A stretch of 64,000 nt of DNA from Bolinopsis microptera (Eukaryota; Ctenophora; Tentaculata; Lobata; Bolinopsidae): contig NC_087083.1 in NCBI RefSeq assembly GCF_026151205.1, forward strand, positions 1,986,501-2,050,500, read 5' to 3'. The notes beneath the pieces are model-generated. The model saw only the letters and a program-made list of their open reading frames with translations, was not told where the DNA came from and searched no databases. The position numbers were made by a program, and so were the translations under genes. Shown here piece after piece: positions 22,921 to 35,239 of the stretch (position 1 is its first letter; each line of letters begins with the position of its first letter).

Positions 22921-25824
22921 TAGGGACTACCGGTGGGTGATGAATAATTGAGAATCCAACAGGATCTTGTTCTCTTCATTGTGCTGATTCCGGGAAGCAT
23001 TCGTTTTACGCTCTAATCCTATTAAAAATCGAGATATCGGTCATTGAAAAATGAGTAATTATAGGCCTGTCAATGATTGCAGCCCATTTAAGAGCTGATC
23101 AGTTGCAGCTACTTGTGCCATATAAGGGATAACTGAAGTCACGTGACCGCCAATCCTATCACGTGACCTTGATTCGTAAATCCTTGGTCACGTGATCACA
23201 TTCGTAACGTGTCGAATGCTGACTAGGATATCTCGTGACGTCACCAGAGCTCAAGCTTCCTGACCAGGCCTTATATGGAATAATATAGTGTATCACGAGT
23301 AATTGGATCCAATTAAGATGAGCTGCGCAATTATCGCAGCATCTTGATCTGGTATCACCTTTTGAAACCCAGCAGGCAGCTGGGCCAGAGCTTTTAAAAT
23401 AGAAGGATTTTTTGTTGATGAAAATCGGAGCGAAAATCATGTAACCCTATGTTTCCGAGGACGCCGAACACGATAAAACTGGTTATAATTATCATACTCA
23501 AGGGCAAATTGCTTTAAATTGCACTTGAATGTCATAGATGTTATTATAAGCTAAGCGCCTAAGCGGCTTATCGGGTGGCACCAGTCTCTCTGCCGAATCT
23601 CAGTAATTGTAAACAACGACGCTACTAGTTTTCAACTAATAATCGGGCTTATGAAGGACAGATCTCAAGTTCAGAAGACTTGTGCCTTACATTTAGAGTT
23701 AATGTTACATTATACCTTATATCTGGAGTTAACGTTACATTATACCTTACATCTAGAGTTAACATTACATTATATCTTACATCTAGAGTTAACGTTACAT
23801 TATACCTTACATCTAGAGTTAACGTTACATTATACCTTTTATCTAGAGTTAACGTTACATTATACCTTACATCTAGAGTTAACGTTACATTATACCTTTT
23901 ATCTAGAGTTAACGTTACATTATACCTTACATCTAGAGTTATAACGTTACATTATACCTTTTATCTAGAGTTAACGTTACATTATACCTTACATCTAGAG
24001 TTAACGTTACATTATACCTTACATCTAGAGTTAACGTTACATTATACCTTTTATCTAGAGTTAACGTTACATTATACCTTACATCTAGAGTTATAACGTT
24101 ACATTATACCTTACATGTAGAGTTAACGTTACATTATACCTTACATCTAGAGTTAACGTTAGGTACATTATACCTTTCATCTAGAGTTAACGTTACCTTA
24201 TACCTTACATCTAGAGTTAACGTTACATTATACCTTTCATCTAGAGTTAACGTTACATTATACCTTACATCTAGAGTTAACGTTACATTATACCTTTCAT
24301 CTAGAGTTAACGTTACATTATACCTTACATCTCGAGTTATAACGTTACATTATACCTTACATCTAGAGTTAACGTTACATTATACATTCATATTATTTTC
24401 TTACCTTTCTTTTGACGTATTACCAAGAAATCACTGGACCTCGTTAGTCGATAAGGATCCAGTTAGTGACGAGCTATGAAGTAATCATTCGACCTCATTA
24501 ATACTGATCCTGTCAGTTACGAACTATGAAGTTATTATTCGACCTCTTTAATCTTAACTTTACATGTGGCGTGGAAGGTAATGTTAACTCACGAATCACG
24601 ATGTAAGGTATAATGTAACGTTAACGGTATAATGTAACGTTAACTCTAGATGTACGGTATAATGTAATTTTAACTCTAGATGTAATGTATAATGGAACGT
24701 TAACTCCATATATAAGGTATAATGTAACATTGACTCTAAATTTAAGGCACAAGTAAATGGTAACTCAAATTGTAAGATACAAGGTAATATTAACTACATA
24801 TGCTAAGTAAAAGGTAAGGTTAACTTTAAATTTGAGGCAGAAGGCAATGAATAGTGTACAACAGAAGGGACCATTCTCATAACAGGAGCGTCAACTTATC
24901 CGTAAGTAGCCCTAGCACAATCCTTAAATACCGTTAGTTCATCCTTAAACCGTTATAAAGACTTGAATTACCGCTTATAGAAGTCCCGATACAATCCTTG
25001 GTAGTCCTTTTCGATATTGGTTGAAATCCGTATTCGTTAATCTTAAGCAAATATTTGAATAAATTTCTTTCGTCCTCTGAACTTGAGATCTTTCCTTCAT
25101 AAGCCCGATTATTAGTTGAGAACTAGTAGCGTCGTTGTTTACAATTACTGAGATTCGGCAGAGAGACTGGTGCCACCCGATAAGCCGCTTAGCTTATAAT
25201 AACATCTAGATGACATTCAAGTGCATTTTAAAGCAATTTGCCCTTGAGTATGATAATTATAACCAGTTTTATCGTGTTCGGCGTCCTCGGAAACATAGGG
25301 TTACATGATTTTCGCTCCGATTTTCATCAACAAAAAATCCTTCTATTTTAAAATCTCTGGCCCAGCTGCCTGCTGGGTTTCAAAAGGTGATACCAGATCG
25401 AGATGCTGCGATAATTGCGCAGCTCATCTTAATTGGATCCAATTACACATGATACACTATATTATTCCATATAAGGCCTGGTCAGGAAGCTTGAGCTCTG
25501 GTGACGTCACGAGATATCCTAGTCAGCATTCGACACGTTACGAATGTGATCACGTGACCAAGGATTTACGAATCAAGGTCACGTGATAGGATTGGCGGTC
25601 ACGTGACTTCAGTTATCCCTTATATGGCACAAGTAGCTGCAACTGATCAGCTCTTAATTGGGCTGCAATCATTAACAGGCCTATAATTATTCATTTTTCA
25701 ATGACCGATATCCCGATTTTTAATAGGATTAGAGCGTAAAACGAATGCTTCCCGGAATCAGCACAATGAAGAGAACAGCATCCTGTTGGATTCTCAATTA
25801 TTCATCACCCACCGGTAGTCCCTA
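22921..25824. mobile_element. 2.9 kb fold-back transposon with 9-bp TSD
   Basis: The element begins TAGGGACTACCGGTGGGTGA and ends with its exact inverse. It is flanked by the direct repeat GACAGGCTG at 22912-22920 and 25825-25833. Arms of about 755 bp (22921 to about 23680, and about 25070 to 25824) are inverted copies with only scattered differences. The middle holds a 30-bp repeat array and a decayed inverted array. No transposase is seen; the 93-codon frames mirrored in the arms (23440-23159 and 25305-25586) are arm sequence. Very long TIRs with a 9-bp TSD suggest a non-autonomous Mutator-like or Foldback-like element (inference). Confidence 0.9.
23685..24390. repeat. 30-bp array within the fold-back element
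   Basis: About 23 copies of a 30-bp unit containing ACATCTAGAGTTAACGTTAC, with TTTATCTAGAG and TTTCATCTAGAG variants and a few insertions (ATAACG). A short decayed array in reverse orientation follows at about 24600-24840, so the palindromic plan extends into the array but only the left side expanded. Confidence 0.9.
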
Positions 25825-29225: not shown

Positions 29226-29461
29226 TCACCAAAAATACTGTTCGCACATACAGGATAGGCTTGATGAAATAGATCGATGGGTCTTGAGAGCCTTCTTGAA
29301 AACATCTAGTCGAGAGATGGAGCGTAGTGAGTAGGGAAGTGTATTCCAGATTTTAGGAGCAGTGTGAGAGAAAGCACCAGCTGTAGCCCTCAGCCTTGAT
29401 AAAGGAGGGCGTTCCAGTAGGAAGAAGTCATGGTCCATTCTGACATGATGTTTACTAGTGT
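29226..29461 (-). pseudogene. LINE ORF2 C-terminus, separated by the insertion
   Basis: Encodes the SKHHVRMDHDFFLLERPPL block and then APKIWNTLPYSLRSISRLDVFKKALKTH, the standard C-terminal signature of CR1/L2-like ORF2. It continues in frame the ORF2 piece ending at 32450, with the DNA element in between. The open frame continues a little into the inserted element (to 29501), which is artefactual. Confidence 0.85.
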
Positions 29462-29497
29462 AGGCCCCGTGACAGCATGGACATTTTTTCGTAATTC

Positions 29498-29715
29498 GCA
29501 TCTTTTGGCGTTAAGCTTAACTCCAAAAGATGCGATTTGACGTCGTGTCAAATAATTTTGACTTGAAATAATCGAGATTTATCCCCAAATTGCATCTTTT
29601 GGCGCTAAGCTTAACGCCAAAAGATGCCGTTTGACGGATAAAGTCGTAAAATCTTAAAATGCGTTTTCAAATGGCATCTTTTTGAGTTAACCTTATCTTC
29701 AAAAGATGCGATTTG
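29498..29715. repeat. Left subterminal palindrome cluster
   Basis: Three imperfect palindromes of about 38 bp have GCATCTTTTGG...CCAAAAGATGC outer arms and a central TTAAGCTTAA, separated by 50-70 bp. The matching cluster is at 32064-32410. Confidence 0.8.
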
Positions 29716-30369
29716 GGAAATACTTTCGCGCGAAATTTCAAAATTCTTCTTCCGAATTCTTGAATTGCTGCATTTTGCAAATCAGCTGATATTTGTAACT
29801 TTAAAAAATAACTGTAACTTATATATTTATACAGGTCCCCGGTTTAACAAGCATTCAGGATAGAACCAGCAGCGGTTAATGACACTGAAACAGAAATGAA
29901 ACACAGTAAGAACAGCAGAAAGAGTGGAGTGCGATAAATATCTTCTTTTCTTCTGCAGTCTGCACTGGTTACTGATACTGATTACTGGAATCGGTTATCT
30001 AATCGAAGCCTAGCCTCTTTGTAACTGGCAAGTGATTTTCCGGATTCAATTTTCAGATAGTCCTTTTTAGCTAGTCGTGAATTTCGTCTTTACTCCATTG
30101 TATTTGTACACTGTATAGACAGTTCTAATTAAATGCAGAAGAGTTGTTCCCACCTCCCAATTACAATCATGACCAACTCGAAATTGAGGATTGTATGCGG
30201 TACTAATTTCTGTAAAATAAGCATGGTTCATGTCTTGCAAAAATATAGTCATCAAAATTTTAGTCCATGTAACACAGCAGTAGCGTGCATCCTAGAGCGC
30301 CAGCATTGAAGTCGATGATCGCATGTTCAACTCTGCGTACTGGCATGTTAATTTTTTTGCTCAGATCAC

Positions 30370-30510
30370 TCTGAGCAAAATCATTTTTCATGATAAATAT
30401 AACATAAACAAAACTGACATGGGCCTTGCTAGGTAACTCTGAGCAAAATCATTTTTCATGATAAATATAACATAAACAAAACTGACATGGGCCTTGCTAG
30501 GTAACTCGAG
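30370..30510. repeat. Tandem 68-bp duplication
   Basis: Two adjacent direct copies contain CTGAGCAAAATCATTTTTCA and ACATGGGCCTTGCTAGGTAA, inside the inverted-repeat arm of the 2,988-bp element. Confidence 0.8.
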
Positions 30511-30589
30511 CAGCGGTAATTTGCCGATGAATTTTAGCAAGCTAGTGAATAAGTAGATAGTGTATTAAAGATACAAAGATAGTAATCTT

Positions 30590-30948
30590 GATTTGACCTG
30601 GATTTCAGCTATTTTGGGATGGGCGTGGCCCCTGGGAGTGGCCTGAATGGGTTGGGAGGTTGAAACTTGATTTTCTGATGGTTTGGGACAGGTACTAACT
30701 ATTTAAACCCCTAAACCTGTTACAAATACCCCGGAACATAAATCCCCTACAGGGGTAAACATTTTAAAACTTGATTTGACCTGGATTTCAGCTATTTTGG
30801 GATGGGCGTGGCCCCTGGGATTGGCCTGAGTGGGTTGGGAGGTCAAAACTTGATTTTTTCTGATGGTTTGGGACAGGAACTAACTATTTAAACCCCTAAA
30901 CCTGTTACAAATACCCCGGAACATAAATCCCCTACAGGGGTCAAATCC
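30590..30948. repeat. Two direct copies of a 178-bp unit
   Basis: Both copies run from GATTTGACCTGGATTTCAGC to AATCCCCTACAGGGGT with few differences. They occupy the centre of the 2,988-bp element. Confidence 0.85.
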
Positions 30949-32063
30949 CCTACAAATCCCCTACAAAAATCAAGGAAACGTGCTAGTTGTATTAGATATG
31001 ATTGAGAGACTATTTACCTTGATCCCTTCCTATTAGTAAGTATCACTATGCTATCTTTGTATCTTTAATACACTATCTACTTATTCACTAGCTTGCTAAA
31101 ATTCATCGGCAAATTACCGCTGCTCGAGTTACCTAGCAAGGCCCATGTCAGTTTTGTTTATGTTATATTTGTAGATGATATGGAATTTGAATTTTATATA
31201 AATTTACACTATGTGGTTGGGGCATTTTGCATAGTAAATATGGTTACTACTCCTATATATCATATTATTTGATTGGTATTCGATTTCTGATTATTTCCCT
31301 AGGAATATGATTATTATATCTCAATTTGGCTTTAGGTAGGGTGCCCCGCTAAAAGAACTGGATTCTTCCAGGAAGCATCCCGTGCACAGAGCTTGGTCTA
31401 CATATATATTAAATTATTAAACATTCATTCTGTATGTGCACGAAAATTTATTTCAATCAATTTATCATGAAAAATGATTTTGCTCAGAGTGATCTGAGCA
31501 AAAAAATTATCATGCCAGTACGCAGAGTTGAACATGCGATCGTCGGCTTCAATGCTGGCGCTCTAGGATGCACCCCACTGCTGTGTTACATGGACTAAAA
31601 TTTTGATGACTATATTTTTGCAAGACATGAACCGTGCTTATTTTACAGAAATTAGTACCGCATACAATCCTCAATTTCGAGTTGGTCATGATTGTAATTG
31701 GGAGGTGGGAACAACTCTTCTGCATTTAATTAGAACTGTCTATACAGTGTACAAATACAATTGAGTAAATACAAAGGTTGTGTACACTATTGTGCTGATA
31801 TGGAAAACTCCCGACTAGACTATATGTTGCTACAATTCATTCGGGGGCGTGGATGAGGTTTGTAATTTAGCTATTTAGGCATTTGCTTTTGACTTATTTA
31901 TCTTCTGGACAGTTCTTGGAACATTGGAAGTTCAATAAAAATCAGTGCAGTAGAGGAGTAAACTTGCACGAGAGTTAAAATGGTACTATTATAATCTGTG
32001 TTGTCAGGTAAGATTTCAGTTTTAACTTTTTAGTGGCGTTTTTAATCAAGATAAACTCCCCTT

Positions 32064-32410
32064 AAATCGCATCTTTTAGAGCTAAGCTTAACTCAAAAAG
32101 ATGCGTTTTAGCGACGCGTTATAAAATTCTCAAAATATTTGTAAAACCGCATCTTTTGGCGTTAAGCTTAACTCCAAAAGATGCGATTTAGCGACGCGTT
32201 ATAAAATTTTCAAAATATTTCTTAAACCGCATCTTTTTGAGTTAACGACACGAATTACGATTCTAGCTTTCGGTTTAAAGCGCATCTTTTGGCGTTAAGA
32301 CTAACTCCAAAAGATGCGAGTAAAGAATCGAAAGATGCACGTTCACGACTCGGGTTTTTTAAGAAATTTTAGCGTAGAAATGCATCTTTTGAGCTTAAGC
32401 AGGCATCTTT
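32064..32410. repeat. Right subterminal palindrome cluster
   Basis: Four or five imperfect palindromes of the GCATCTTTT(G/T)...AAAAGATGC type occur here, two of them followed by the shared spacer AGCGACGCGTTATAAAATT. They correspond to those at 29498-29715. Confidence 0.8.
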
Positions 32411-32438
32411 TTTGCGCCAAAGCGCAATGTCCAGGGTG

Positions 32439-35239
32439 TCACGGGGCCTTAGTGTCCCTAATTTTGACCATTGTCCTTAGATATTCAGGAGCACAATCGT
32501 TTATGCACTTGAAAACCAGTAACGCTATCTTGAATTTGATTCGCATTGCTACAGGTAAGAAGTGTAATTCAATCATATAGGGTGTGATGGGCTCCTGTCT
32601 CAACTTCCCGTGAAGTCCGAATATGAATCTCACAGCAGTATTCTGCACTTTTTGAAGTTTCTGGAGAAGTCTTTCAGAAAGGGCACCATAAGTAGCATTT
32701 CCATTGTCCAGAATGGAATGAATTGAAGCGTGTACCATTTGGATTTTGAGCTCCTTACTCAGTTTGGAACCTATTCTGCCAAGATTTTGCTGATTTACAT
32801 AGCAAACTCTGACAACGTTGTTGATCTGTGCCTCTAAATTGAGATGGTTGTCAAAAATGAATCCCAGATTCTTTGCTGACTTGGTAGGTTTAATGGAGCA
32901 TATGCTCAATGCTGTCAAGATTGAATTCAACTTGTTTTGGGGCTTTGGAGTTTGTAGATATCTCGATTATCTCACTTTTATTGTCGTTGAGTTTCAGGTA
33001 GTTCTCACTCATCCATGATTTGATGTGCTCGAAACATTCTTTCAATTTGCTCTTCATAGATTCAATGGCCATGTCTTTTTTAGGATCAAATGAGAAGTAT
33101 ATCTGAGTACCATCAGCATATAGATGGATTTGGAGACCATGCATACTTGCAATATCTTGTAGCTGTTTAGTGTAAAGGATGAAAAATATAGGACCAAGAA
33201 TTGAGCCCTGAGGAACTCCAATCTCGAGGTCACAGAGAGAGGAATATTCACCCTTAACACCAACGATAAAGGATCGATTTGACAGGTAGCTTGCAACCCA
33301 TTGAAGAATAATACCACTAAATCCATAGCTATGTTCGAGTCGTCTCAAAAGTCTTTTGTGATTGATGGTATCAAATGCAGCTGACAAGTCAAGAAGAAGA
33401 AGAACAGTATGACTCTTCTTGTCAACTTGGAGGAGTATATCATTATGTACCTTGAGCACTGCAGTTTCACAGCTCATGTTTTTCCGATAACCTGATTGAT
33501 TTGCTGCGAAAAGATTGTTCTTATTTAGGTACTCGGAAAACTGTGAGTGGGCACACTTTTCTATAACCTTGGAAATAAAACTGAGGTTACTCACAGGTCT
33601 ATAGCTTTTCAAGTCGTCTGCATCTAGAGAGGCTTTCTTTAGGACTGGTCGTACTATAGCAGACTTCAGAGCATGTGGAAAATAGCCCTCTTGGAGGGAT
33701 AGGTTAACTATGAGGGTGATATGAGGGAGCAATTCATCGAGACAGTGCTTGAGGAGCCATGTTGGAAGAGGATCGAGTTCACACGACTTATTATTCATCG
33801 TCTTAGTAATCAGGGAAAGAACCTCTGATCGAGTAACTAATCTGAAAGCTGTAGCAGAGCATGGTAGAGAACTATGTGTATCATTAGGCATCTCTAACTC
33901 TTTTACACAAGGTTTGTCTTCAGATTGACTATCAGCACTGGACAGGTTTTCCTCTGAGATAGACCCATAAATCTTCTTTACTTTATCGTCAAAGTAGTTT
34001 TTGAGACTTTCTGCAACTGCTTGATGCGTGGGCCCAGAAGGGGACTTCCGAGAAAGATCTTTATCCAGAAGGTTATTTATAATTCTGTATGTAGCTTTTG
34101 GATCTCCTTTAGCATCTGTAAGTCGTTTCTCATAATAGCGATTCCGTTCTCTAGAGATGATTAAGGTAGTATCTACACAAGCTTCCCTGTAGATTTTTCT
34201 ATAATCTTGAGCATCAGCCATACCTTTATGCTTCTTCCAGAGTCTTTCAGTAGCTCTGCGCTTTTTACGGGCATCATTGCAGTTTTCATTCCACCAGTCA
34301 CTACGACCAGGTATAAAATAGATGTTCTTAGCTGGTGCATGCTTATTAAGAACTGAGGATATAACAGAATCGTATTTGTCGACTGCGTCATCTAAACTAG
34401 TTAGCTGGGATGGAGATGGCATGTGGAGTACAATGTCAGCTTTGAAAGCATCAATATCAATTTTGCTAAACTCACGAACTGTTTTTTGTTCCTTACTTGG
34501 CTGCTTTGATGACACATCAATCTCGGGTGCACTAAACTTAACCAGGAAGTGATCTGACGTTGTGCCCGTGTCTTCCACAATTTCAAGCTCTGTGATGTTT
34601 AAGTTGTCAGCCGGTGATTCCAATGTTAGCACTAGGTCCAGTGTGCCGCCAGAGATGTGTGTTGGTGAGGAAACATGCTGCTTCAAGCCTTTTGAATGAC
34701 AGAGTGCCATGAATTGTTTAGCCCAATAGTAGATGGATCCTCTACATGAAAGTTGAAATCCCCTGCTAATATAGGAATACCAGATTTAGTTATCAAGGTA
34801 TCCATGTAATCAGAAAACTGTTCAAGAAACAATTTCTTTCGGGTTTCTTGATATTTCTTATGAGAAGAAACTTGAGTTGATCGATAAAGGACACAAAATC
34901 TGATCAAGTGAGATTTTGCTCTGAAGACAGTTTCCAAAACCTCAAAGGAACTAAACTTCACACTGTTTCTTGTCAGGGAGACAACCTTTGGGTCATAGAT
35001 GAAGGCAACACCGCCACCCCACGTCTTGGAGCACTAATAATATCATATTTGTGGTCTTTCACCTCAGCGATTTTGGCCTTATCATCAACTCTCAGCCAAG
35101 TCTCTGTCAGGAAGCATATATCCACGTTCTCTTCTCTCAGTAGCTCTAGTACAGATACCGTTTTGTTGCAAATGGATCTTGCATTAAAGGTTGCCATTTT
35201 CAGAGCATGGGGTGGACTGTGATGGTGTCCTGGTGTCAC
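32439..35239 (-). pseudogene. CR1/L2-like LINE ORF2 (endonuclease plus RT), broken
   Basis: In order on the minus strand: an APE endonuclease start (MATFNARSICNKT, FLTETWL) at 35239-34973; a frameshifted piece with GIPILAGDFNFHVEDP at 34961-34683; then a long frame 34710-32890 with TSDHFLVKF and the RT domain (SAIVRPVLKK, YRPVSNLSFISKVIEK, LLLLDLSAAFDTINH, GVPQGSILGP). The catalytic box reads LYADGTQIYF, so the second metal-binding Asp of YADD is Gly. A further frameshift near 32910 leads to KNLGFIFDNHLNLEAQI and the thumb, ending at 32439. The point change and three frameshifts show a dead copy. Its last 80 or so codons are at 29461-29226. Confidence 0.85.

Follow-up and report, generated by a model that had tools for sequence, protein, structure and literature searches.

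Transposons of the Ds, dSpm and MITE (miniature inverted-repeat transposable element) type are non-autonomous derivatives of cut-and-paste transposons with terminal inverted repeats, and in both hAT and CACTA elements short tips lie next to subterminal arrays. We analyzed an element built along similar lines in a 64,000-nucleotide stretch of DNA from Bolinopsis microptera (C12:1986501-2050500; this whole stretch is the window), where a 2,988-bp insert occupies window positions 29462-32449, begins with the left tip AGGCCCCGTGACA, ends with the right tip TGTCACGGGGCCT as read on the plus strand, and is flanked on both sides by TAGTGT. Its relatives elsewhere in the genome share with it perfect inverted tips, 6-bp target site duplications and palindrome arrays inside the tips, and they have spread recently; we conclude, at a probability of about 0.85, that the window element belongs to a family of non-autonomous terminal-inverted-repeat DNA transposons that is small, young and moved in trans. 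The insert lies in the second open reading frame (ORF2) of a long interspersed nuclear element (LINE) that, judged by its sequence, is young. The features at the two ends are as follows.

29456..29461, no strand: left copy of the target site duplication TAGTGT, which is single in 19/19 empty LINE sites
29462..29474, plus strand: left terminal inverted repeat AGGCCCCGTGACA; a longer imperfect repeat (92%) runs to 29485
29499..29708, no strand: left subterminal array of three palindromes (29499-29532, 29593-29626, 29675-29708)
32070..32316, no strand: right subterminal array of three palindromes (32070-32103, 32150-32183, 32283-32316)
32437..32449, minus strand: right terminal inverted repeat, TGTCACGGGGCCT on the plus strand
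32450..32455, no strand: right copy of the target site duplication TAGTGT
32456..34710, minus strand: ORF2 of the interrupted, young LINE, whose 3' coding end runs on below 29456

In the genome searched (264.65 Mb, 232 contigs), the LINE sequence on the right flank gave 24 matches, and 19 of these, besides the window's own, extended to the junction, 18 at 98–100% identity and one at 91%. Inspection of all the sequences showed that each of the 19 carried the unbroken site TTTACTAGTGTCCCTAATTTTGACCAT with one TAGTGT; in LINE copy L083 the empty site was read from the sequence, not by pattern match. A preliminary description of the window had proposed an insertion into a LINE with an exact TAGTGT junction, and had named LINE relatives that naturally contain the insert as the observation that would speak against it. 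The tips and flanks are present as described, and all 19 junction-spanning relatives are uninterrupted. Also as proposed there, removing the insert and one TAGTGT leaves a minus-strand LINE frame that continues uninterrupted through the junction; apart from the insert, the LINE frame is also broken near 32,900 (ORFs 32890-34710 and 32439-32930).

The exact 13-bp tip AGGCCCCGTGACA occurs 18 times in the genome, as eight pairs and two single tips (on C5 and C10). Matches with one mismatch numbered 81, which is chance level because a reversed control pattern gave 100, and, on reading through the list, no two of them were seen facing inward within 30 kb of each other. All eight two-ended copies have AG..CT termini, perfect inverted tips and a perfect 6-bp duplication. 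Their lengths are 2620, 2640, 2987, 2988, 3548, 3601, 3776 and 12429 bp, and their duplications, in the same order and in one orientation, are TATATA, TTACGA, ATCAGA, TAGTGT, TAAGGA, TAAGCA, TGTCTG and TAAGGT. The eight 6-mers all differ, 7/8 start with T, and the TATATA of copy C11b is uninformative on length because it lies within a TA run; the printed flanks of the eight copies were not alike. The boundaries and the 6-bp duplication given in the preliminary description are confirmed, and the other two-ended copies have the same ends.

Inside both tips we found arrays of a 34–36-bp palindrome, GCATCTTTTGGCGTTAAGCTTAACGCCAAAAGATGC and variants of it, and on the right side additional palindrome half sites at 32230, 32383 and 32404. 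All 64 genome matches to the strict palindrome form (at most three mismatches) fell in nine family members, the eight copies plus the C5 remnant, while a relaxed 34-place form (at most two mismatches) gave 52 sites against 0 for the control, the 50 sites listed all being in the same nine members. The family is defined by its 13-bp tips, its subterminal palindrome arrays and its 6-bp duplication; kilobase inverted repeats are not among its defining traits. The palindromes may be transposase binding sites.

Comparison of the ends divided the copies into two subfamilies. Left ends were 99.3–100% identical among the window copy, C11a, C11b and C9, and 99.5–99.8% identical among C8a, C8b and C13s, with 96.0–96.5% between the two groups; the corresponding values for right ends were 98.9–99.4% (window-copy group), 98.8–99.1% (C8a group) and 95.1–95.6% between groups. 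The ends of the long C13 copy group with the window-copy group (98.9–99.3%), but this copy lacks that group's rearrangement, which is described below. With ends 98.8–100% identical within subfamilies, movement was therefore recent.

The preliminary description had also counted kilobase-scale nested inverted repeats among the properties of the element. The repeats do exist (in the window copy, one pair of 316 bp at 97% and one of 120 bp at 100%); as a trait of the element they did not hold up, and proved to be a fold-back rearrangement of one subfamily, present in 4/8 two-ended copies and absent from the other four. The layout was compared in C11b, C9, the window copy and C11a. Relative to the C13 copy with its nested insertions left out, this group reads 1-627 forward, about 2071-2077 down to 1359 inverted, and 1646 to the end forward, adjoining segments overlapping by up to 7 bp and 2 bp where they meet. 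In the window copy the rearranged region has the following parts.

30083..30582, no strand: left inner fold-back arm, matching the right inner core in inverted orientation, with a 68-bp tandem duplication (30363-30498)
30583..31050, no strand: fold-back loop, with two near-identical tandem units about 183–185 bp apart
31051..31775, no strand: right inner fold-back arm, broken by the insertion at 31171-31459
31171..31459, no strand: 289-bp insertion of a high-copy repeat, with a likely 4-bp duplication, ATTT

The fold-back probably arose by a template switch during repair or replication. The four copies have four different duplications, from which it follows that the product transposed after it had formed; and as inner inverted repeats made by this rearrangement in one subfamily, the kilobase repeats are therefore secondary. 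The 289-bp insertion has no counterpart at that place in the other copies, and its repeat gave at least 41 matches at 98–100% identity from the 40 of 575 candidates that were scored. The same position in the body was hit by two different insertions, this repeat in the window copy and a truncated LINE in C11a (L012:1337-2443, plus strand).

The eight copies contain 83 stop-free frames of at least 60 aa, 20 of which were covered by a Pfam scan. Significant matches occurred only in nested LINEs, where a fragment in C11a and, within the long C13 copy, the ORF2 of a LINE matched reverse transcriptase; among the remaining scanned frames none reached a family cut-off, the best being DUF4528 (0.015; 15.7 bits against 27). 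That no transposase is visible, as previously remarked, holds for these 20 frames. Searches of the genome for an autonomous partner with the ends, the tip and the palindrome returned, among the places listed, only the same family, and the assembly may be incomplete; the autonomous relative with the same ends that the preliminary description had proposed to look for was not found in this genome. Rfam gave nine hairpin (microRNA family) matches over L015 (the C8a locus), L014 and L060, every one under its gathering score, and ARAGORN found no tRNA in L015, L014, L060 and L062; that one module of the core resembles a tRNA is thus an impression.

Two frames or copies that might have represented the partner were rejected. 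The long C13 copy reaches 12.4 kb through two later insertions into an element of about 2.7 kb, and one of these insertions is a LINE. In this LINE a 716-aa ORF (L010:2741-4891, minus strand) has an oxygenase domain of the AlkB type (PF13532, 2.9e-17) along with weak matches to a PHD finger and to GDSL, and a 917-aa open frame (L010:3-2753, minus strand) matches endonuclease and reverse transcriptase. The 369-aa open frame in C11a is a LINE reverse transcriptase fragment (PF00078, 5.5e-12), whose PDB matches were weak and to reverse transcriptases only. The second nested insertion in the long C13 copy (C13:8386308-8389060) has TAAGG..CCTTA ends and what looks like an 8-bp duplication, GCTGGCGC, and we take it to be hAT-like; the C8a copy holds, at L015:1871-2812, a CCCGGT-rich insertion with AGGAGGTGACCGGG inverted ends.

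Neither of the two single tips belongs to a large autonomous element. At C5 a remnant of the right end, about 400 bp long, holds a high-copy insertion, and no left tip (at most three mismatches) was found within the 28.5 kb read around it. Beyond this later insertion, which has CAGGGTGGGCC-type tips, TTAATA recurs, the same 6-mer that adjoins the C5 tip, a pattern as expected from excision followed by incomplete gap repair. The C10 match (L026, C10:11511460) consists of the last 70 bp of the element, fused to the 3' tail of the 31171-31459 repeat and lying inside a reverse transcriptase ORF; the tail match was judged by eye. It looks like a retroposon that carried a transposon tip along.

If the window element was indeed moved in trans, a transposase encoded elsewhere would bind the palindrome arrays beside both tips, pair the ends and cut at AGGCCCC.../...GGGGCCT, and the element would then be inserted at a staggered 6-bp cut, the repair of which would yield the 6-bp duplication. 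The subfamily of the window copy would have originated when a template switch rearranged an older copy, and would then have transposed several times. The moving enzyme would probably be of the DDE type, movement would presumably proceed by excision, and the autonomous partner may have been lost from the assembly or be missing in it. Several points weigh against this account: excision is suggested by one remnant, that on C5, and its 6-mer match could be chance in AT-rich DNA; no autonomous copy was found from which the enzyme class could be read; and no transposase was seen in the 20/83 Pfam-scanned open frames, a scan outside which decayed, stop-bearing remnants would fall.

The alternative that fares best would make this account more specific and would not replace it: the enzyme may belong to a known cut-and-paste superfamily that gives 6-bp duplications (hAT6, a short-duplication MuDR lineage or IS3EU/GingerRoot), the family then having unusual tips. 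We regard this as possible, though somewhat doubtful. The usual hAT tip starts C/T-A-R-N-G, and AGGCC is unlike it; short tips beside subterminal arrays, by comparison, are a point of agreement with hAT as well as with CACTA. The comparison with hAT6 covered duplication length and this tip rule, and the 6-bp duplication is the likeness. Lineages of hAT with 6-bp duplications, among them the category hAT6, and MuDR/IS256 elements with duplications of 4–10 bp are on record (PMC12730594, PMC10045372). IS3EU and GingerRoot also share the 6-bp duplication, but their termini are TA..TA, in GingerRoot occasionally TG..CA, in contrast to AG..CT in 8/8 copies here (PMC10045372). After these comparisons of end motifs with known groups the superfamily still cannot be named, as the preliminary description had said.

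It is unlikely that the family represents a DNA transposon superfamily not yet described, one having AGGCCCC tips, a 6-bp duplication, arrayed long palindromic putative binding sites and an uncatalogued transposase absent from the assembly. We noticed no account of an AGGCCCC-ended family with a 6-bp duplication in the literature, in searches that were not aimed at the sequence.

Equally improbable, in our estimate, is that the element is a deleted Polinton/Maverick satellite, inserted by a Polinton integrase. Polinton-type DNA polymerase genes do occur in the genome (20 PF03175 matches), and a Polinton-like element on C7 has termini of the form AG..CT and is flanked by the 6-bp duplication TACTTG; judged by duplication length and the first two bases, Polintons come closest. 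This C7 element starts with AGTAGTATG, an AGTAGT tip, whereas the window element starts AGGCCCC and has neither (AG)3 nor (AGT)2, one or the other of which is reported as the end motif of vertebrate Mavericks (PMC8097293). Repbase joins non-autonomous elements if their duplications are equally long and their leading 11 bp align with no more than one mismatch (PMC4455052), and by this rule the C7 tip does not pair with that of the window element. All 99 AGGCCCCGTGACA matches (at most one mismatch) are more than 20 kb away from any polymerase match, and 0 of the 20 PF03175 matches lie in family copies, a search that did not extend to integrase; a satellite would lack both polymerase and integrase anyway. 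The family also differs in size, with 2.6–3.8 kb in 7/8 copies and the eighth lengthened by nested insertions. Polinton ends were defined at the C7 element, where at least 1.29 kb is common to both at 99.8%, and six further polymerase loci gave no resolved ends. Some of the Polinton-type polymerase genes (1261-aa ORFs) stand as inverted pairs 8–11 kb apart (C7:6691702/6702995, C9:6595755/6606125, C9:663553/671611), as though each end of a Polinton-type element carried its own copy of the polymerase.

Mobilization by the transposase of another long-repeat family, with CAC..GTG ends, would be suggested by a common core: the left core piece is present at at least 21 loci of that family and the right piece at at least 20 of those, both lower bounds from 40 candidates scored each (of 78 for the left and 90 for the right). 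At the four loci compared, the core pieces were 77–92% identical to those of C8a. The CAC..GTG family, however, has CACCCCCCGCGCGTG tips and inverted repeats of about 830–850 bp (two loci extended), and its duplication is a clear 5-bp GTTAT at one of two loci (C12:2171599-2174278), the other, on C3, being ambiguous within an AT repeat. The tips of the two families are unlike, and the common core is therefore better read as captured sequence, which makes this alternative very improbable. Two non-autonomous families with different tips, apparently different duplication lengths and a common body point to capture or exchange.

Spread by segmental duplication or retroposition without a DNA transposase, for which the seemingly retroposon-carried C10 remnant could be cited, is hardly credible, being contradicted by the 6-bp duplication and identical double tips that each of the eight copies has within differing flanks.

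The window contains another long-inverted-repeat element at 22921-25824, with tips TAGGGACTACCGGTGGG and an outer arm of 615 bp. It is flanked by a 9-bp direct repeat, GACAGGCTG, presumably as in Mutator-like elements.

As a clean, recent insertion with defined ends, the window element allows the missing transposase to be searched for by ends alone. It is also a concise example of how bodies may be exchanged between orphan elements and how such elements may become hairpins: within the same genome, families that differ in tips and duplication length have internal sequence in common, and a fold-back subfamily was still mobile after it had formed.

Among the remaining known systems, Dada-U6 resembles the family in its 6-bp duplication, whereas Dada-U6 and Dada-U1 have no inverted repeats at their termini and insert at small RNA genes (PMC3706591); here the tips are perfect and there are eight different target 6-mers. 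Fold-back elements are similar in the hairpin-capable inner long inverted repeats of 4/8 copies, which in this family, in contrast, are internal and secondary and are missing in the other four. Non-autonomous terminal-inverted-repeat transposons share with it short inverted tips, subterminal arrays, fixed-length duplications and no recognised gene; it differs from them in having no partner found, AGGCCCC tips together with a 6-bp duplication, and a 34–36-bp palindrome as the array unit. The kind of element is already known, with family and superfamily not assigned, and what the window holds is an orphan of that kind, not a new mechanism.

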